Of a stretch of DNA of 64,000 nt, positions 38,440 to 56,520 are shown piece by piece. Within the stretch, counting starts at the first letter, position 1; every line of letters begins with the position of its first letter. The DNA is from Deltaproteobacteria bacterium (GTDB lineage: Bacteria > Myxococcota > Myxococcia > SLRQ01). Location: NCBI GenBank assembly GCA_029210625.1, contig JARGFU010000012.1:62001-126000 (forward strand), given 5' to 3'. Below the pieces are notes generated by a model. That model made no database searches, was not told the DNA's origin, and was given only the letters and a program-made list of their open reading frames with translations. The position numbers were made by a program, and so were the translations under genes.

Positions 38440-38619
38440 GAGTGGCGTCCTATCTGAGGGAAGAGAATGCAGCGTTCCCGCTGGATCGGCCCCCATCCAG
38501 CTGGGGGCCAGCCTGAAAGAACCCGAAACCTAACATCGCCCCCCCCGGGCGTCCGCTCCTCCGGGGTGCTTTTCCCCTGCCTTCCGTGGCCCATCCTTCC
38601 CCCTCCCGGGGGAGGCTTC

Positions 38620-38699: not shown

Positions 38700-41297
38700 A
38701 TGCCCAGCGTACTTCTCATCGAGAGCGATACCGTCTTTGCCCAGCACCTCGCGGCCGCCCTCGAGCTGGCGGGGTACGGCACAATCACCGCGGCCGACGG
38801 CGCCTCCGGCGTCGAGCAGGCCAGGAGCGCGCCGCCCGACGCCATCGTGCTGGCCGCCGAGCTGCCCGACGGCTCGGGTTTCGCGGTCTGCTCGCGCCTG
38901 CGCCGGGCCGCGGAGCTGGCGAGCATCCCCCTCATCCTCACCTCCTCCGAGGCGACGCCCGAGGCCATCGAGGCCCACAAGCAGAACCGGGCGGCCGCCG
39001 ACGCCTACCTCCTCAAGCCCTTCGATCCGGGCACCCTCGTCCAGCAGCTCCAGTCCCTGATGGGCGGAGGCGCGGCCCGGGCGGCGGCCCCGCCCCGGCC
39101 GGCGGCGGCCGCACCCCAGCCCGCGCCGACCGGCCCGGTGGGGGGCCCGGCCGCGGGCGCGCCCGTGATGTCTCTCGAGGACATCGCCGACGATCTCGAC
39201 CTCGACTTCCGGCCCGCGGGAGAGCCCCTCTCCTCCCCGGCTCCACCGCCCCTCGGCGGCGGCGCGCCCCCTCCCCTGCCGAAGGGGGGCGGCGGACCGC
39301 CCGCCATGAAGCGGAAGGCCTCCCCCACGGTCGACGACCTGCCCAACCCCTTCGAGGGCCTGGCCGCCGAGGCCCGGATGCCCGCGGGGGCCAGCCCGGA
39401 CGAGAAGCTGGCCTTCTTCCGGGAGCGCATCAAGCTCCTCGAGGCGACGATCCAGAAGGGCCGCGATGGTTGGACCGAGCTGACCAGCCGCTTCGCCGAG
39501 CTGCGGGGCGACGCCGAGGCCTACCAGGATCACATCGCCCTGCTCGAGCAGGACCTGAGCGAGCGCGACGAGGCCATCGCCGAGCGCGACGCCCAGCTCT
39601 CCGACGGAGACGTCTCCCGGGACTCCATCGAGGAGCAGTACATGGAGGCGCGGGGCGAGGCCTCGCTCCTCCAGGACGAGGTGAACCAGCACCTCGCCTC
39701 CATCGCCGAGCTCGAGGAGGAGATCGTCGAGAAGGGTCGCGCCCACGCCGAGGCGATGGAGGCCGCCGAGCAGGCCAAGCAGGACATCTCCGAGGTCCTC
39801 AACGAGATGATGCGCGAGCGGGAGGAGGACGCCAGGTCGGCCGCCGCCCGCATCGCCGACGCCGAGGCCAAGGTGGCCGCCCTCGAGGAGAGCCACCGGG
39901 CCGCCCTGGAGCAGGCGAGCATCGACAGCGCCGCCGCGCTCGATCAGCTCGAGCAGAGCCACCTCGCGGAGATCGCCGCCCTCAAGCAGGAGCTCGAGGA
40001 GCAGAAGGCCGCCCTCGCGCTGGAGCACCAGGGGGCGCTCGACGCGCAGAAGGCCGCCAGCGAGGAGGCCATCGAGGAGGCTCGCCGCCAGGCCGAGGAG
40101 CGCCTCGGCACCATCCAGGCCGACCTCGAGGGGGAGAAGGCCGCCATCGAGAGTGTGCTCGACGAGCGGGAGAGTGAGCTGGAGAGCCGCCTCGCCGAGC
40201 TCGAGACCCTGGAGGCCCGGCTCGCCGAGGCGATCGAGGGCGGCGGCAAGCTCACCGCGGAGAAGAACGAGCTCGCGGCGAGGCTCGCCGAGCTGGAGGC
40301 CCAGCTCGCCGCCCAGCAAGCCTCCGCCCAGCAGGCCGCCCAGGAGCAGGCCCAGAACCTCGAGGAGGCCGAGGCCCAGCTCGGCGCCGTCCAGGAGGCC
40401 CTCCAGACCACTCAGGGAGAGGCCGAGCAGCTCCGCGCCGAGCTCGCCCGCCTCCAGCAGGAGGCCGAGTCCTCCGGCCACGCCGCGGCGGAGCAGGTGG
40501 AGCAGCGCGACGCCCGCATCCTCGATCTCGAGCAGCAGCTGCAGACCCTCCAGCTCGATCTCCAGGAGCGCGAGCGGTCCCTCGCCGAGGAGCGCGAGCA
40601 CACGGTGGTGGTGCGCGAGCAGCTCTCCTCCCTCGAGGCGAGGAGCGACGAGCTCCAGAACGTCATCTCCAGCAAGGAGACCGATCTCGCCGAGGTGAAG
40701 GGCGAGGCCGACGCCCGGGAGATGGAGCTCACCCGCCTGCGCGAGGAGCTCGCCTCACGCGAGCGCCAGGTCGAGGCCGCCCAGCAGGCCACGCAGTCCG
40801 CCCGGGCGCAGCTCGAGGAGATCCGCGGCGCCAGCAGCGGCCTGAAGGACGACGTCGCCGACGCCCAGGATCAGGCGCGCCGCTTCTCGGCCGACCTCGA
40901 GGAGGAGCGGAAGGCGCGGCGCGAGGCCATCGACAAGATGCAGGTCTTCCGCGACGAGATCAAAGCGCTCAAGGCGGCGGCCAAGGGGGGGGGCGACGCC
41001 CAGGAGATGGCCAGGCTCAAGAAGGCGGTCATGGAGCGCGAGCAGCGCCTCGACCGCATGGCCAAGGAGCTCGAGAAGCTGCAGGCTGCCCACAAGAACG
41101 AGATCGCCGAGCTCAAGGCGCACGCGGTGAAGGCCACCAAGATCGCCAAGGCCGCGAAGGCGAAGCTGGACGCGGCCGGCGCCGGCGCCGGCGACGGGGG
41201 CAACAGTGAGGAGACCCTCGCCCTGAAGAAGCGCGTCCTGCAGCTGCAGAAGGCGCTCCAGAACGCGAAGGCGAAGATCGAGCAGCTGGAGGGGTAG
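38700..41297 (+). CDS. pseudo-receiver plus long coiled-coil protein, FrzS/AglZ-like
   Basis: 865 residues. Residues 1-122 form a receiver domain with E8/D10 and K106 kept, but the phospho-accepting Asp is Ala52 (IVLAAELPDG), so it should not be phosphorylated. The opening VLLIESDT and the IVLA segment recall the atypical FrzS receiver of Myxococcus xanthus. Residues 123-235 are a Pro/Ala/Gly linker; about 240-865 is near-continuous coiled coil. FrzS and AglZ share this layout and act at cell poles and focal adhesions in motility. The in-frame extension to 38586 precedes the likely promoter and is rejected. First gene of a rightward run with an ABC exporter. Confidence 0.82.
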   Translation: MPSVLLIESDTVFAQHLAAALELAGYGTITAADGASGVEQARSAPPDAIVLAAELPDGSGFAVCSRLRRAAELASIPLILTSSEATPEAIEAHKQNRAAADAYLLKPFDPGTLVQQLQSLMGGGAARAAAPPRPAAAAPQPAPTGPVGGPAAGAPVMSLEDIADDLDLDFRPAGEPLSSPAPPPLGGGAPPPLPKGGGGPPAMKRKASPTVDDLPNPFEGLAAEARMPAGASPDEKLAFFRERIKLLEATIQKGRDGWTELTSRFAELRGDAEAYQDHIALLEQDLSERDEAIAERDAQLSDGDVSRDSIEEQYMEARGEASLLQDEVNQHLASIAELEEEIVEKGRAHAEAMEAAEQAKQDISEVLNEMMREREEDARSAAARIADAEAKVAALEESHRAALEQASIDSAAALDQLEQSHLAEIAALKQELEEQKAALALEHQGALDAQKAASEEAIEEARRQAEERLGTIQADLEGEKAAIESVLDERESELESRLAELETLEARLAEAIEGGGKLTAEKNELAARLAELEAQLAAQQASAQQAAQEQAQNLEEAEAQLGAVQEALQTTQGEAEQLRAELARLQQEAESSGHAAAEQVEQRDARILDLEQQLQTLQLDLQERERSLAEEREHTVVVREQLSSLEARSDELQNVISSKETDLAEVKGEADAREMELTRLREELASRERQVEAAQQATQSARAQLEEIRGASSGLKDDVADAQDQARRFSADLEEERKARREAIDKMQVFRDEIKALKAAAKGGGDAQEMARLKKAVMEREQRLDRMAKELEKLQAAHKNEIAELKAHAVKATKIAKAAKAKLDAAGAGAGDGGNSEETLALKKRVLQLQKALQNAKAKIEQLEG

Positions 41298-41300
41298 GCC

Positions 41301-42254
41301 GTGCCGCCCACCCCCGCCATCGCGGTCGCCGACCTCACCAAGGTCTTCCGGGGCTTCGGCCGCCGGAGCGGCGTCCGGGCCCTCGACGGAGTGAGCCTGG
41401 AGGTCCCGGCGGGCAGCGCCTTCGGCCTGATCGGCCTGAACGGCGCCGGCAAGACCACCCTCATCAAGATCCTGCTGGGCGTGGTGCACGCCACCGCCGG
41501 GCGGATCCAGCTCCTCGGGGGCCCGCCGAGCGACCGGGAGATCCGGCAGCGGATCGGCTACCTGCCCGAGCGCCTCCACCTCCCCCCCGCCTTCACCCCC
41601 CGCGAGTTCCTCACCAGCGTGGGCCGCCTCAAGCGCCTGCGCGATCCTGCGGCGGAGGCCGAGCGCCAGCTCGCCCGGGTCGGCCTGCAGGACGCCCTGG
41701 GCCGCAAGCTGAAGACCTTCTCCAAGGGGATGCGCCAGCGCACCGCCCTGGCGGCGGCGCTGGTCGGCGCCCCCGAGCTGCTGATCCTCGACGAGCCCAC
41801 CGACGGCATCGATCCCCTGGGCCGGATCGAGGTGCGCCACATCCTCGAGGAGGAGCGCCAGCGGGGCGCCACCCTCTTCCTGAACTCGCACCTCCTGGCC
41901 GAGACCGAGCGGGTCTGCGACCGGATCGGCATCCTCTCGGAGGGGCGCCTGCTGCGGGAGGGGCCCCTCTCGGAGCTGGCCGGCGGCGCGCCGCGCTGGC
42001 GGGTACGCTTCTCGACCGGAGAGGTCGGCGACGCCACGACCCCCGAGCTCCTCGCGGGCCTCGCCGGGCAGGGCTTCGCCCCCGACGGGGCGCCCGGGAG
42101 CTTCCTGGTCGAGGCCGGGGACGCCGCGACCCTCAACGCCCACCTCGACGCGGCCCGGGCCCGGGGGGCCCTGATCCTCGAGGTCTGCCGGGACCTCAAG
42201 GACCTGGAGGGCATCCTCTCCGAGGCGGTGGGCCAGGAGGGGCGGCGCGGATGA
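41301..42254 (+). CDS. ABC transporter ATP-binding protein (ABC-2 exporter type)
   Basis: 317 residues. Walker A GLNGAGKTT, signature FSKGMRQRTALAAAL, Walker B LLILDEPTDGID, switch histidine NSHLL. A C-terminal extension of about 90 residues follows the core. GTG start 3 bp after the FrzS/AglZ-like stop; 4-bp overlap with the permease gene. Together they resemble NatA/CcmA-type exporters or gliding-linked ABC exporters; the substrate is unknown. Confidence 0.93.
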   Translation: MPPTPAIAVADLTKVFRGFGRRSGVRALDGVSLEVPAGSAFGLIGLNGAGKTTLIKILLGVVHATAGRIQLLGGPPSDREIRQRIGYLPERLHLPPAFTPREFLTSVGRLKRLRDPAAEAERQLARVGLQDALGRKLKTFSKGMRQRTALAAALVGAPELLILDEPTDGIDPLGRIEVRHILEEERQRGATLFLNSHLLAETERVCDRIGILSEGRLLREGPLSELAGGAPRWRVRFSTGEVGDATTPELLAGLAGQGFAPDGAPGSFLVEAGDAATLNAHLDAARARGALILEVCRDLKDLEGILSEAVGQEGRRG

Positions 42255-43099
42255 GGAGCCTGGGCGTCATCGGCACCCTCGCCCTCGATCTCCTGCGCGA
42301 GGCCCGCGCCCGCAAGTGGGTCTGGGCCCTGGCGCTGGCGGTGACCGCGGCCCTGCTGACGGTGGCCTTCGCCCTGCGCCTCGACGTGGTCGATGGCGCC
42401 CTGGCCGCCTCCCGCTTCTTCGGTGACTCGATCGGGCGGGGCGTCTACCAGCCGGTGGAGGTCTTCCTCCGCCCCCTCTTCGAGGCCTCGGCCTACGTCG
42501 TCTTCTACGGCGGGATGATCTTCGGGATCATCGCCTGCGCCGACTTCGCCCCCAGCCTGCTGGCGCCAGGGAGGATCGAGCACCTCCTCTCGCTGCCCCT
42601 GCGGCGGACCGAGCTGCTGGCCGGCACCTACCTGGGCGTGCTCCTGCTGGTGAGCTTCGGCGCCCTCTACGGCTCGGTGGGCCTCACCCTGATCCTCGGC
42701 GTGAAGGCCGGGGTCTGGGGCCTCCACCTGATCCTCGCCTCCCTCCTGGCCATCCTGGCCTTCGCGGCGGTCTACGCCCTGATGCTCGCCTCGGCGGTCT
42801 TCGTTCGCTCGGCTGCCCTCTCGGCCGGCGCCGGCTTCCTCCTCTTCGTGCTGGGCATCATCGCCACCTACCGCGCGGACATCGCCCGCCTCTTCGAGGC
42901 CGGCCTCTCCCGGCAGCTCTTCACCTGGCTCACCGCTCCCCTGCCCCGGATCGCCGGCCTGGCCAACCTGGCCGGCGCCATCGCCGCGGAGGGCCCGGTC
43001 GAGCAGGGGACCCTCCTGCGGTTGGGCCTGGGCGCCCTGGTCTTCGCCGCGGCCGGCTTCGCGCTGGCGGCCTGGCGCTTCGGCGGAAAGGACTACTGA
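42251..43099 (+). CDS. ABC-2 type permease
   Basis: 282 residues with six predicted TM helices (for example WVWALALAVTAALLTVAFAL, YVVFYGGMIFGIIACADF, LGLGALVFAAAGFALAAW). The segment LLAPGRIEHLLSLPLRRTELLAGTYLG matches the cytoplasmic coupling region of ABC-2 permeases. Partner of the ATPase just upstream; overlaps the next gene by one base (TGATG). Confidence 0.9.
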   Translation: MRSLGVIGTLALDLLREARARKWVWALALAVTAALLTVAFALRLDVVDGALAASRFFGDSIGRGVYQPVEVFLRPLFEASAYVVFYGGMIFGIIACADFAPSLLAPGRIEHLLSLPLRRTELLAGTYLGVLLLVSFGALYGSVGLTLILGVKAGVWGLHLILASLLAILAFAAVYALMLASAVFVRSAALSAGAGFLLFVLGIIATYRADIARLFEAGLSRQLFTWLTAPLPRIAGLANLAGAIAAEGPVEQGTLLRLGLGALVFAAAGFALAAWRFGGKDY

Positions 43100-44190
43100 T
43101 GAAGCGTGGACAGCTGATCTGGCTCGGCCTGCTGGCGATCCTCCTGGGGGTCGCGGCCTGGCTGATGGACGTGGAGGAGATGCCTCGCGCCCACCGCGCC
43201 GAGAAGATGGACTTCCCCCGGGGGCTGGACGACGCGGAGCGGCAGCGCATGGTGCGCCGCCAGGTGCTGCCCGAGCGGACCCCGCCGGCGCCGGCCGACG
43301 AGCAGCAGCCGCCTCCCCCGCCGCGCCCCCGCGATCCCCTCCTCGCCGCCTTCCCCGGGGGCGAGGGCGGCATGGCGGTGGTGGGCGAGCTCAACGCCCT
43401 GCGCCACTCCCCGGTCGGCGAGATGGTCCTCTCGTGTCTGGGCGACAAGGCCTGGGGCGAGATCGAGAAGTTCAAGGACGAGATCGGCATCGACCCCCTC
43501 GAGGATCTCGACCGCTTCGGCTTCTCGGGGGAGACCGCCTACCTCACCGGCGACTTCGCCAGCGTGGACTGGGACAAGCTGATGAAGGGCGACAGCCCCA
43601 TCCACTGGGGAGAGAAGGGCGAGATCTACGAGCGGGGCTCGGAGGTCCTCGGCGTCTGGGACGATCAGCTGGTCGTCCTCGGCCGCGACCGCGCCGAGGT
43701 GCAGGCGGCCATCGATCGCCTGGAGGGCCGCGCCGAGGCGGGCGCCCCCACCATCGCCGAGCACCAGACCTACGGTGACGTCTACGGCGTCGTCGGCGCC
43801 GAGGCCATCGCCCGGCTCCTGGAGAGGGATCAGGACGAGATCTCGCGGCGGATCCGGGAGGTCGCGAAGCAGGTCTCCTTCCACCTCGACGCCTCGAAGG
43901 ACGTGGCCATGGTGCTCGACCTCGAGGGCAGCGACCGGGAGTCGGTCGACGAGCTGGCCCGCAGCCTGGCCGGCGCCATCTCCGCCGGCCGGATCGCAGC
44001 GCAGGAGCAGGGGGAGGAGGCCCTCGCCGACCTCCTCGACTTCGCCCGGGTGGTCCCCAAGGGCGAGAGCTTCACCCTCGAGCTCGCCCTCCCCGAGAGC
44101 TACCTCGCCGAGCACCTCGGCTCCTGCAAGTGGGTGCGCCCCGACCCGGACGCCCGGCCGGAGGATCCCCTGCAGGGCGAGATGGAGTAA
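43099..44190 (+). CDS. membrane-anchored periplasmic protein, unknown function
   Basis: 363 residues. One N-terminal TM helix (LIWLGLLAILLGVAAWLM), a Pro-rich linker (about 68-82), then a soluble alpha/beta region with paired segments DRFGFSGETAYLTGDFASVDWD and TYGDVYGVVGAEAI. No family recognised. Translational overlap with the ABC permease suggests it is an accessory part of that exporter. Confidence 0.72.
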   Translation: MKRGQLIWLGLLAILLGVAAWLMDVEEMPRAHRAEKMDFPRGLDDAERQRMVRRQVLPERTPPAPADEQQPPPPPRPRDPLLAAFPGGEGGMAVVGELNALRHSPVGEMVLSCLGDKAWGEIEKFKDEIGIDPLEDLDRFGFSGETAYLTGDFASVDWDKLMKGDSPIHWGEKGEIYERGSEVLGVWDDQLVVLGRDRAEVQAAIDRLEGRAEAGAPTIAEHQTYGDVYGVVGAEAIARLLERDQDEISRRIREVAKQVSFHLDASKDVAMVLDLEGSDRESVDELARSLAGAISAGRIAAQEQGEEALADLLDFARVVPKGESFTLELALPESYLAEHLGSCKWVRPDPDARPEDPLQGEME

Positions 44191-44213: not shown

Positions 44214-44831
44214 ATGTCCGAGAGCCTGATGCGCCTGCAGCAGTCCGAGAGCCTCGTCGTCCAGCAGAAGAAGGAGTGGGGCGAGATCCTCTCCGGCTGG
44301 GAGACCCGGAACCGCTACCAGATCACCTCCCCCGACGGGGTGGCCCTCTATCACGCCGGCGAGGTCGGCTCGGGGGCCCTGGCGGTCCTCACCCGCGGCT
44401 TCCTCAAGAACAAGCGCCCCTTCACCATGGAGATGCGGGACGCCGCGGGGGCGCCCGCCTTCAAGGTCGTCCGCCCCTGGACCTGGTTCTTCTCCGAGTG
44501 CGAGATCGTCGCCCCCGACGGCAGCGTGCTCGGCAAGGTGGATCAGCGCTGGGCCTGGTTCAACCGCCGCTTCACGGTCTACGACCGGCGAGGCGTCGAG
44601 GTGGCGGAGATCTTCGGCCCCCTCTTCCACCCCTGGACCTTCCAGCTGAAGGTCGGCGAGCAGGAGGTCGGCAAGATCACCAAGAAGTGGAGCGGCCTCC
44701 TCAAGGAGGCCTTCACCGACTCCGACAACTTCATGGTGCACTTCGGCCCGCAGATGGATCAGGACCTGCGCCTGGTCCTCCTCGGCGCGACCTTCCTCAT
44801 CGACTTCCTCTACTTCGAGAACCGCGAGTGA
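44214..44831 (+). CDS. scramblase/LURP1-like (tubby C-terminal fold) protein
   Basis: 205 residues. Alternating beta strands rich in aromatic residues (RNRYQITSPDGVALYHAGE, FKVVRPWTWFFSECEIV, DQRWAWFNRRFTVYD) resemble phospholipid-scramblase-related proteins. No TM helix is obvious except a short C-terminal hydrophobic part (LVLLGATFLIDFLYF). ATG 44214 has a strong GGAGGAGGAG ribosome site. Function unknown; possibly a lipid-associated partner of the upstream exporter. Confidence 0.6.
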   Translation: MSESLMRLQQSESLVVQQKKEWGEILSGWETRNRYQITSPDGVALYHAGEVGSGALAVLTRGFLKNKRPFTMEMRDAAGAPAFKVVRPWTWFFSECEIVAPDGSVLGKVDQRWAWFNRRFTVYDRRGVEVAEIFGPLFHPWTFQLKVGEQEVGKITKKWSGLLKEAFTDSDNFMVHFGPQMDQDLRLVLLGATFLIDFLYFENRE

Positions 44832-44838
44832 TCCGGCC

Positions 44839-45909
44839 ATGAGTGACCTCGCCCGCCGCCTCGCCGAGCGCACCCTCTCGCTCTGCCAGACCGCCTCCCC
44901 CTACGGGGAGGAGGAGGCGATCGCCCGGCTGGTCGAGGCCTGGGCGCGGAGCCCGGGGATGCGAAGGCGCGTCGAGCGCATCAGGAACAGCGTCGTCGTC
45001 GGAGAGGTCTCGGAGACGCGACCCACCGTGGCCCTCGTCGGCCACCTCGACACCGTGCCGCCCCACGAGGACGAGGCCCTGCCGCGGCTCGAGGAGGACC
45101 GGGTGGTGGGCCTCGGCGCCAGCGACATGAAGGGCGCCCTGGCGGTCATCCAGTGCCTGCTGGAGGACCTGCGCCCGGAGGACACGGGCGTGGAGGTGAT
45201 GGCGATCTTCTACGACAGGGAGGAGGGCCCCCACGAGGACAGCGGGCTGAAGACGGTCCTCGCGCAGCGCCCCGATCTGGCGAAGCTGGAGCTCGCCCTG
45301 GTGATGGAGCCCACCGACGGGGTGGTGCAGGTGGGCTGCCTGGGGTCCATCCACGCGACCCTGACCTTCTCTGGCAAGGCCGCCCACAGCGCCCGCCCCT
45401 GGCAGGGCGAGAACGCGATCACCGCCGCCGGCGCCTTCCTGGCCCGGCTCCACGAGATGAAGCCGATCGAGGTCGAGGTCGGCGGCCACGTCTTCACGTC
45501 GGTGGCGACGATCACCACCGCCCAGGGCGGCCGCTACCGCAACGTGGTGCCCGACACCTTCGTGCTGAACCTCAACTACCGCTTCGTCCCGGGCACGCCC
45601 CTCGAGGAGGCGCAGCAGCGGGTGCGCGAGCTGGTGCCCGCCTCGGCCGCGATCGAGTTCACCGACCTCGCGCCCTCCGGCGCGGTGCCCGATCACAACG
45701 CGCTGCTCGAGCGGCTGGTGAGCGAGGGCGGCCTGCAGGTCGCGCCCAAGATCGCCTGGACCGACGTCGCCCGGTTCACCGAGGCCGGGATCGACGCGGT
45801 GAACTTCGGGCCCGGCCGGAGCGACCAGGCGCACCAGGTGGGCGAGTACTGCGAGATCGCCCCCCTGGCCCGGGCCTACGAGGTGCTCTCGGCCTTCCTG
45901 AAGTCCTGA
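44839..45909 (+). CDS. dapE: succinyl-diaminopimelate desuccinylase
   Basis: 356-residue M20 metallopeptidase. Metal ligands in LVGHLDTVPPHED and GLGASDMKGALAV, the catalytic Glu in FYDREEGPHEDSG, dimerisation domain with GKAAHSARPW, and the final metal histidine in DQAHQVGEYCEIA. Removes succinate from N-succinyl-LL-DAP in lysine and peptidoglycan synthesis. Resembles the actinobacterial-type dapE. Tail overlaps the DUF1232 gene by 34 bp. Confidence 0.87.
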   Translation: MSDLARRLAERTLSLCQTASPYGEEEAIARLVEAWARSPGMRRRVERIRNSVVVGEVSETRPTVALVGHLDTVPPHEDEALPRLEEDRVVGLGASDMKGALAVIQCLLEDLRPEDTGVEVMAIFYDREEGPHEDSGLKTVLAQRPDLAKLELALVMEPTDGVVQVGCLGSIHATLTFSGKAAHSARPWQGENAITAAGAFLARLHEMKPIEVEVGGHVFTSVATITTAQGGRYRNVVPDTFVLNLNYRFVPGTPLEEAQQRVRELVPASAAIEFTDLAPSGAVPDHNALLERLVSEGGLQVAPKIAWTDVARFTEAGIDAVNFGPGRSDQAHQVGEYCEIAPLARAYEVLSAFLKS

Positions 45910-53284: not shown

Positions 53285-54349
<1,065 letters not shown>

Positions 54350-54435: not shown

Positions 54436-56520
54436 ATGGCCGCCCCTGTTTCATCCGCGGAGCTCGAGCTCGCCCCGCCGGCCGGGGACATGCCCCCCTG
54501 TCCGCAGTGCGGCCACGTCCACCTGAGCCCCACGAACTACTGCGGCGGCTGCGGCGCCGACCTCCGGGGGCTGGGCGGAGACACCGACACCCTGGTGGGC
54601 GCCTCCCTCGATGTCCTCATCGACGGCCGCTACAAGATCCAGGCGAAGCTCGGCGAGGGGGGGATGGGCTCGGTCTTCCGGGTCGAGCACGTCCGGATGG
54701 GCAAGGTCTGCGCCCTCAAGCTCCTGCGCCCCGAGCTGGTCGACGGCCCCCGGGGCAAGATGGTGCGGGACCGCTTCAAGCAGGAGGCGCGGATCGTCTC
54801 CCGGCTGGTCCACCACAACACCATCCAGGTCTTCGACTTCGGCCAGACCCGGGACGGCGCCCTCTACCTGGTGATGGAGTTCATCCGGGGCCGGCCCCTC
54901 TCCGACATCCTGCGGGAGGCCGGGCGCCTGCCCGAGCTGCGGGTGGCCAGCATCGGCGCCCAGGTCCTGCGCTCCCTGGCCGAGGCCCACGAGGCCGAGA
55001 TCATCCACCGGGACATCAAGCCGGCCAACGTGATGCTGGTCGATCTGCGGGATCGCAAGGACTTCGTGAAGGTCCTCGACTTCGGCATCGCCAAGCTCAC
55101 CGCCCGCGCGAAGGGCGACACCGGCGCCGGCGAGATCGTCGGCACCCCCTACTACCTCTCCCCCGAGCAGGCCCGGGGCGACCCCCTCGACGGCCGCAGC
55201 GACCTCTACTCCCTCGGGGCGATGCTCTTCGAGATGCTCACCGGGCAGGTGCCCTTCACCGCCGAGACCCCGCTGGGCGTGATGACGGCCCACATCACCC
55301 GGCCGGTGCCCAAGATCCGGGAGCACGAGGGAGGCCAGGGGGTGAGCGCCGAGATGGCGGCCATCCTCGAGAAGGCGATGGCCAAGCGCCCGGCCGACCG
55401 CTTCACCGACGCCGACGAGATGCGCGCGGCCCTCGAGGCGCTGGTGGGCCGGGGCCTGGGGACCTCCCAGGAGATCGTGGCCCTGCCGGTGGATCCCACC
55501 GAGAGCGGGTCGCACCTGGCCGCCCGGGCCGACTTCGAGCGCTTCGCCCGCCGCCTGGTCATCTCCCGCTTCCTCAAGGCGATGGCGCCGGCGGTGCTCC
55601 TCGCGGGCGGCCTCGGCGGCGCCTACGCCTGGTGGCAGCAGCCCGCGCCTCCCCTCAGCGTCGAGGCCGAGCCCAACGACGATCCCCGCACCGCCAACCT
55701 CCTCTCCCCCGAGCGGGTCTCGGATCTGCCCTCCCTCGCCGCCCGCCTGGCCTCCCGCCAGGAGGGCCTGCGCACCGTCGAGGGCCACCTGGGCAAGCGG
55801 ATCTCGAGGACCCAGGGGGACGCCGACTTCTACCGGCTCGAGCTGCCCGGCCCCGACCCCGCCACCCTCTTCGCGAGCATCGAAGGGCTGCCCAACATCG
55901 ATCTGGTGCTGGAGCTGCTGGGCGAGCGCCGGGACGCCCCCGGCAAGCTGGAGGTGATCGCCCGCGCCGATCGCAAGGGCACCCACCGCGGCGAGGCGCT
56001 CCCGGCCATCGAGATCACGCCGGGCACCTGGATGCTCCAGGTGCGCCAGGTGCTGGTGGGCGACGAGGACGGCAAGCTCCCCCTGCCGGTGGAGAACGTC
56101 TCGGACGACTACCAGCTGAAGGTCGCCCTGCTCCCCTCCGGCCTCACCCAGGAGCGCGAGCCCAACGATCGGCCCGAGGAGGCCAGCCCCCTGCCGGCCG
56201 GGAAGCCCGTGATGGCCATGACCGGCCTGGGCGGCTCGGAGGACTGGTGGCGGCTCGAGGCGATCCCCGAGGGCGCCGAGCTCACCCTCTCCGCCCCGGA
56301 GGAGGCCGACCTCGAGGTGGTGGTGCCCCCGGCCGAGGGCGCGAGCAAGAAGCAGCGCCGGCGCCCCCGGGCGCGACTCCAGGTGCGGGCCGGCAGCACC
56401 GGCACCCTGCAACTCCCCGCGAGCCCCGAGGCGCCGCTCTCCCTGCTGGTGCGCACCGAGCGCTGCGAGAGCGCCTCCGCGGCCTACGCCCTCGAGCTCA
56501 CCCTCCCCGGCCAACCCTGA
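54436..56520 (+). CDS. transmembrane Ser/Thr protein kinase with zinc ribbon and PPC-like sensor domains
   Basis: 694 residues. Zinc ribbon CPQC...CGGC at 22-39; kinase domain about 66-336 with G-loop LGEGGMGSVF, K95, HRD 191-193 and DFG 215-217, all catalytic residues present; TM helix 383-400; then two periplasmic beta-sandwich units resembling bacterial pre-peptidase C-terminal domains, each opening with an E-x-EPND motif (412-415 and about 565) and DADFYRLELP or SEDWWRLEA. ATG 54436 chosen; TTG 54427, six bases after a TAGACT hexamer, is an alternative. Possibly senses the envelope next to mreB. Confidence 0.9.
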   Translation: MAAPVSSAELELAPPAGDMPPCPQCGHVHLSPTNYCGGCGADLRGLGGDTDTLVGASLDVLIDGRYKIQAKLGEGGMGSVFRVEHVRMGKVCALKLLRPELVDGPRGKMVRDRFKQEARIVSRLVHHNTIQVFDFGQTRDGALYLVMEFIRGRPLSDILREAGRLPELRVASIGAQVLRSLAEAHEAEIIHRDIKPANVMLVDLRDRKDFVKVLDFGIAKLTARAKGDTGAGEIVGTPYYLSPEQARGDPLDGRSDLYSLGAMLFEMLTGQVPFTAETPLGVMTAHITRPVPKIREHEGGQGVSAEMAAILEKAMAKRPADRFTDADEMRAALEALVGRGLGTSQEIVALPVDPTESGSHLAARADFERFARRLVISRFLKAMAPAVLLAGGLGGAYAWWQQPAPPLSVEAEPNDDPRTANLLSPERVSDLPSLAARLASRQEGLRTVEGHLGKRISRTQGDADFYRLELPGPDPATLFASIEGLPNIDLVLELLGERRDAPGKLEVIARADRKGTHRGEALPAIEITPGTWMLQVRQVLVGDEDGKLPLPVENVSDDYQLKVALLPSGLTQEREPNDRPEEASPLPAGKPVMAMTGLGGSEDWWRLEAIPEGAELTLSAPEEADLEVVVPPAEGASKKQRRRPRARLQVRAGSTGTLQLPASPEAPLSLLVRTERCESASAAYALELTLPGQP

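Follow-up and report, generated by a model that had tools for sequence, protein, structure and literature searches.

Within the window analysed here, the 64,000-nucleotide stretch of contig JARGFU010000012.1 from a deltaproteobacterial assembly, an open reading frame with an ATG start encodes an 865-residue protein in which a receiver-like domain is followed by a linker and a long coiled coil. Sequence comparison places this protein in the FrzS/AglZ superfamily, whose founding members define the front end of myxobacterial cells, and identifies it as one of three paralogues of that superfamily encoded by the same genome. The reading frame itself continues upstream to a GTG at 38586, and the ATG is preferred because it fits the N-terminus of the homologues. 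The gene and the co-directional run that it heads are composed of the following features:

38700..41297, + strand: third-paralogue FrzS/AglZ-superfamily gene, 865 aa, open frame with ATG start
38700..39065, + strand: pseudo-receiver, residues 1-122, with E8, S9, A52, H93, Y103 and K106
39066..39404, + strand: Pro/Gly-rich linker, residues 123-235, with 26 Pro and 16 Gly in 113 residues
39405..41294, + strand: coiled coil, residues 236-865, 630 residues, proline-free and heptad-periodic
41301..42254, + strand: ABC transporter ATPase, 3 bases past the scaffold gene
42251..43099, + strand: ABC-2 type permease, with a weak Pfam ABC2_membrane match, kept in 20/20 loci
43099..44190, + strand: anchored periplasmic protein without a Pfam or NCBIfam family, predicted fold TP0453-like
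44214..44831, + strand: Scramblase family protein (PF03803, E 1.1e-49)
44839-45909: DapE, also part of the run

Scans for sigma-70 promoters and terminators gave no signal beyond chance level. Elsewhere in the window, an MreB gene (53285-54319; PF06723, E 1e-148) lies about 12 kb downstream of the scaffold gene and is adjoined by a gene for a Ser/Thr kinase with a zinc ribbon (54436-56520). A large cluster of polysaccharide/glycosyltransferase type, including sugar epimerases and chain-length and flippase-like proteins, occupies 1848-25829, as judged from translated starts only.

Pseudo-receiver, linker and coiled coil

Pfam Response_reg covers residues 4-117 of the protein (E 1e-14), and alignment shows that this receiver is without the residues needed for phosphorylation. 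An earlier note on this DNA had singled out E8, D10, K106 and Ala52; all four are indeed present, but D10 does not serve as the conserved Mg2+ acid, since that position is Ser9. When the domain is aligned to FrzS and to generic receivers, the acidic pair corresponding to CheY D12/D13 falls on E8 and Ser9, so that the same Mg2+ acid is lost as at Ser10 of FrzS (PMC1974792). These differences were quantified in a second receiver set, comprising 88 family members and 6 generic receivers. Asp was found at position 9 in 0/88 family receivers versus 6/6 generic ones, with identical counts at position 52, the phosphorylation site (0/88 versus 6/6). Conversely, position 93, equivalent to FrzS His92, is His throughout the family (88/88) and in none of the generic receivers (0/6), and His93 and Tyr103 are both invariant across the 88. 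In FrzS, His92 and Tyr102 are essential for leading-pole localisation and for S-motility (social motility), and AglZ reportedly retains the His/Tyr pair too (PMC1974792). The top PDB sequence match of the window receiver is likewise the FrzS receiver (2gkg, E 2.5e-18), and its predicted model (pLDDT 93.6) finds its best fold matches among FrzS chains (2i6f, TM 0.87-0.93).

The remainder of the protein also agrees with the earlier description of a linker followed by some 620 residues of coiled coil, the boundaries now being drawn at residues 123-235 and 236-865. The coil begins around the clade motif SPDEKLAFFRERIKLLE, and its 3.5-residue hydrophobic periodicity reaches 3.73, a level that 300 shuffles never approached (highest value 1.95), while Asp, Glu, Lys, Arg or Gln account for 45% of residues 236-865. 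Because this generic coiled coil is the longest part of the protein, and because the neighbourhood described below offers no conserved partner, the gene might encode a general cytoplasmic structural protein of the cytoskeleton or nucleoid, with a relic receiver and no polarity role. The invariance of His93 and Tyr103 in all 88 family receivers points to selection acting on the surface of the pseudo-receiver, and a purely structural protein is accordingly considered rather unlikely.

Gene order around the third paralogue

Anaeromyxobacteraceae-type genomes yielded relatives of the third type, as did a second family (f5) and G002, which alone represents the rest of the window's family in the comparison set and whose orthologue shows 56% receiver identity to the window protein; relatives of this type are 763-898 residues long and have the AAELPDxSGF receiver motif and coil motifs in common. 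The Anaeromyxobacteraceae-type proteins (763-898 aa) resemble the window protein in length, in the receiver motif AAELPDxSGF, and in the coil motifs PEEKLEYFRDRL and SEVLNETM..RIA; unlike the window gene, however, their genes lie near hemW or PrmA/RsmE genes and have no adjoining ABC trio. In G002 and the window genome alike, the upstream neighbour of the third paralogue is a divergent M16-peptidase relative, and in G002 hemW directly follows it. Both in G002 and at seven other third-paralogue loci, the latter drawn from two further families, hemW either adjoins the paralogue or lies no more than a few kb away on the same strand, and this gene order provides independent support for the third-paralogue group. 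The window genome carries hemW on a different contig from the window gene; a receiver encoded beside it (C1:278534) was rejected as an unrelated NtrC-type regulator. No third paralogue was found in G013, identified as an M. xanthus-type genome by its 100% match to the FrzS receiver, where the best profile matches were FrzS, AglZ and generic receivers only; the remaining candidates proved to be generic receivers, with Asp present and His absent.

Downstream of the window gene, neighbouring genes overlap by at most 4 bases or sit at most 23 bases apart, and the run of ABC exporter, anchored periplasmic and scramblase-like genes which the earlier note saw headed by the scaffold gene is confirmed as tight and co-directional. 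The ABC trio (ATPase, permease and periplasmic protein) is a conserved unit of the class that matches no named system, its third protein being present in 93/145 genomes. The predicted structure of this periplasmic protein resembles that of TP0453, a Treponema protein that binds lipids and associates with the outer membrane (Foldseek E 2.6e-6, TMt 0.59), and the modelled fold suggests that the ABC unit may export lipids.

This arrangement underlay the further proposal of the earlier note that the scaffold may organise a different polar machine; in a machine made of the adjoining ABC exporter, periplasmic protein and scramblase, the coil would recruit the exporter to a pole. The spacing is in keeping with such a role, with a 3-base gap to the ATPase gene followed by overlaps, and the combination of a TP0453-like predicted protein with a scramblase would allow the run to be a lipid-export unit. 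Comparison among genomes nevertheless points the other way. At 20/20 ABC-trio loci of related genomes, neither a FrzS/AglZ-type gene nor a scramblase gene adjoins the trio, the two receivers encoded at these loci being at least 1 kb away and weakly similar. In G002, the trio and the third paralogue occupy separate contigs, with hemW following the latter, and the trio is absent from every other third-paralogue locus examined. In Myxococcaceae, frzS and the trio share a strand and are separated by about 17-50 kb, which is taken as linkage without demonstrated meaning. Since the adjacency is seen in the window genome only, it constitutes weak evidence for a joint machine, and because the link is not conserved, the ABC and scramblase genes are only a weak client candidate; that the scaffold organises them at the pole is judged quite improbable. 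Operon context in a single genome is a poor functional guide here.

Relationship to FrzS and AglZ

A tree built from 76 receivers separates the window protein and the FrzS and AglZ relatives, as one group, from generic receivers with support of 100/99, and forcing the window receiver among generic receivers gave a p-AU of 0.06. The kinship proposed from its layout is thus upheld by the receiver phylogeny, and the grouping with unrelated response regulators that would have told against it was not recovered. Within the superfamily, the best tree places the window receiver outside the FrzS clade (99/93), and forcing it into FrzS costs 24.8 lnL (p-AU 0.085), a placement that the test disfavours without rejecting it at the 0.05 level. 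The AglZ clade leaves it out at 100/100, yet forcing it into AglZ costs only 6.9 lnL and is not rejected (p-AU 0.29). Holding the third group as one clade gave p-AU values of 0.28-0.31 on receiver columns alone, by which its unity is neither shown nor rejected.

A genome-contig scan with a single receiver query returned four distant matches only. The window genome encodes both FrzS and AglZ elsewhere, so that the window protein is neither of them and represents a third paralogue. FrzS of M. xanthus (MXAN_4149; PDB 2gkg/2i6f) has the same layout of pseudo-receiver, linker and C-terminal coiled coil, and shares with the window protein the His-Tyr pair, the Ala that stands at the phosphorylation site and the Ser that replaces the Mg2+ Asp. 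Unlike the window protein, FrzS has a conserved helix at the end of its coil, which is the shorter of the two at about 235-258 residues, and its gene neighbourhood differs. Given the common layout, the shared Ala and the top PDB match to FrzS, the window gene could be read as the genome's frzS relocated away from the frz genes. This reading is contradicted by the paralogue on contig C35, whose receiver is 45% identical to that of M. xanthus FrzS, versus 35% for the window protein. The C35 paralogue occupies the place that frzS has in the conserved gene order of Myxococcus-type genomes: sigma-factor-like and anti-sigma-like genes lie to one side of it, and a gene for a coaX-type pantothenate kinase to the other (names judged from the sequences themselves). 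The window gene lies outside this neighbourhood. The C35 protein also carries a form of the FrzS C-terminal helix (EERVxKAYQ..EKxREKxRKAL) that is absent from the window protein, and a relocated FrzS is therefore highly improbable.

AglZ of M. xanthus (MXAN_2991) resembles the window protein in its pseudo-receiver, His/Tyr pair and long coiled coil, which opens in both with a similar P(E/D)(E/G)K..R motif, but differs in having a coil of about 1100 residues or more, the segment SIADRKAELLAE, and Arg at the phosphorylation site. The paralogue on contig C3 (receiver at 213361, about 1345 aa) groups with AglZ and contains close versions of the AglZ segments SIADRKAELLAE and LHEKDVELQGLK, neither of which occurs in the 630-residue coil of the window protein. 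The AglZ post-receiver motif is also missing from the window protein; without this motif and without the FrzS C-terminal helix, its partners probably differ from those of either relative. It is scarcely credible that the window protein is instead a canonical response regulator phosphorylated at another site of the receiver, because, although E8, Y103 and K106 of the canonical set are retained, the phospho-Asp is missing and so is the second Mg2+ acid, and the FrzS receiver, which has lost the same residues, fails to bind either Mg2+ or the phosphoryl analogue BeF3 (PMC1974792).

The distribution of these copies also bears on the age of the superfamily. According to the text of Guzzo et al. 2015 (PMC4546325), FrzS and AglZ, neither of which has a functional phosphorylation site, are paralogues that arose by duplication in the ancestor of Cystobacterineae. 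That text does not mention a third paralogue, although the supplementary trees may include one, and the third paralogue is apparently undescribed in the literature searched. In genomes of another class (f11; L236-L246), FrzS/AglZ-type copies come in three sizes: those of about 700 residues group with FrzS, those of about 960-990 are placed near the third group, and those of about 1250-1300 group with AglZ. These three copy types suggest a triplication older than the published date of the FrzS/AglZ duplication. On balance, we see an even chance that the superfamily consists of three ancient subfamilies, the third acting as a polarity scaffold in its own right and serving a different client, and that their triplication predates the Cystobacterineae ancestor.

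Proposed role in cell polarity

The MglA polarity switch is tied to type IV pili via FrzS and to gliding via AglZ. The window genome contains an mglB-mglA pair on contig C29 (L256:1453-2553), downstream of a recR-like gene, with MglB assigned by family match and MglA by sequence and position. Taken together with what is known of FrzS and AglZ, this pair leads us to propose an MglA-network scaffold: the third FrzS/AglZ paralogue is probably a phosphorylation-independent coiled-coil scaffold that is positioned by, or together with, the MglA/MglB module. In FrzS, the pseudo-receiver docks SgmX, the coil alone is enough for polar localisation, and MglA-GTP acts upstream (PMC11580455; PMC12632262). 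MglA effectors of the SgmX/SopA type probably belong to the same polarity network as the window protein, although SgmX, compared here through its published description (PMC11580455), is a TPR protein without a receiver.

By analogy with these systems, dimerisation, polar localisation, a link to MglA and a docking role may be inferred for the window protein. Its dead receiver would offer a docking surface whose shape depends on His93 and Tyr103, a buried pair. Localisation would be determined by the dimeric coil, which would also keep the partner at a pole or at another site. The scaffold might then act within the MglA polarity network or parallel to it, with its partner docked independently of phosphorylation.

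If the third paralogue is truly a separately conserved one, it would represent a third output of the MglA switch and would allow one to test what else myxobacteria polarise. The occurrence of such copies in more than one class would, in addition, revise the view of a single duplication in the Cystobacterineae ancestor as presented in the text of the 2015 study (PMC4546325).
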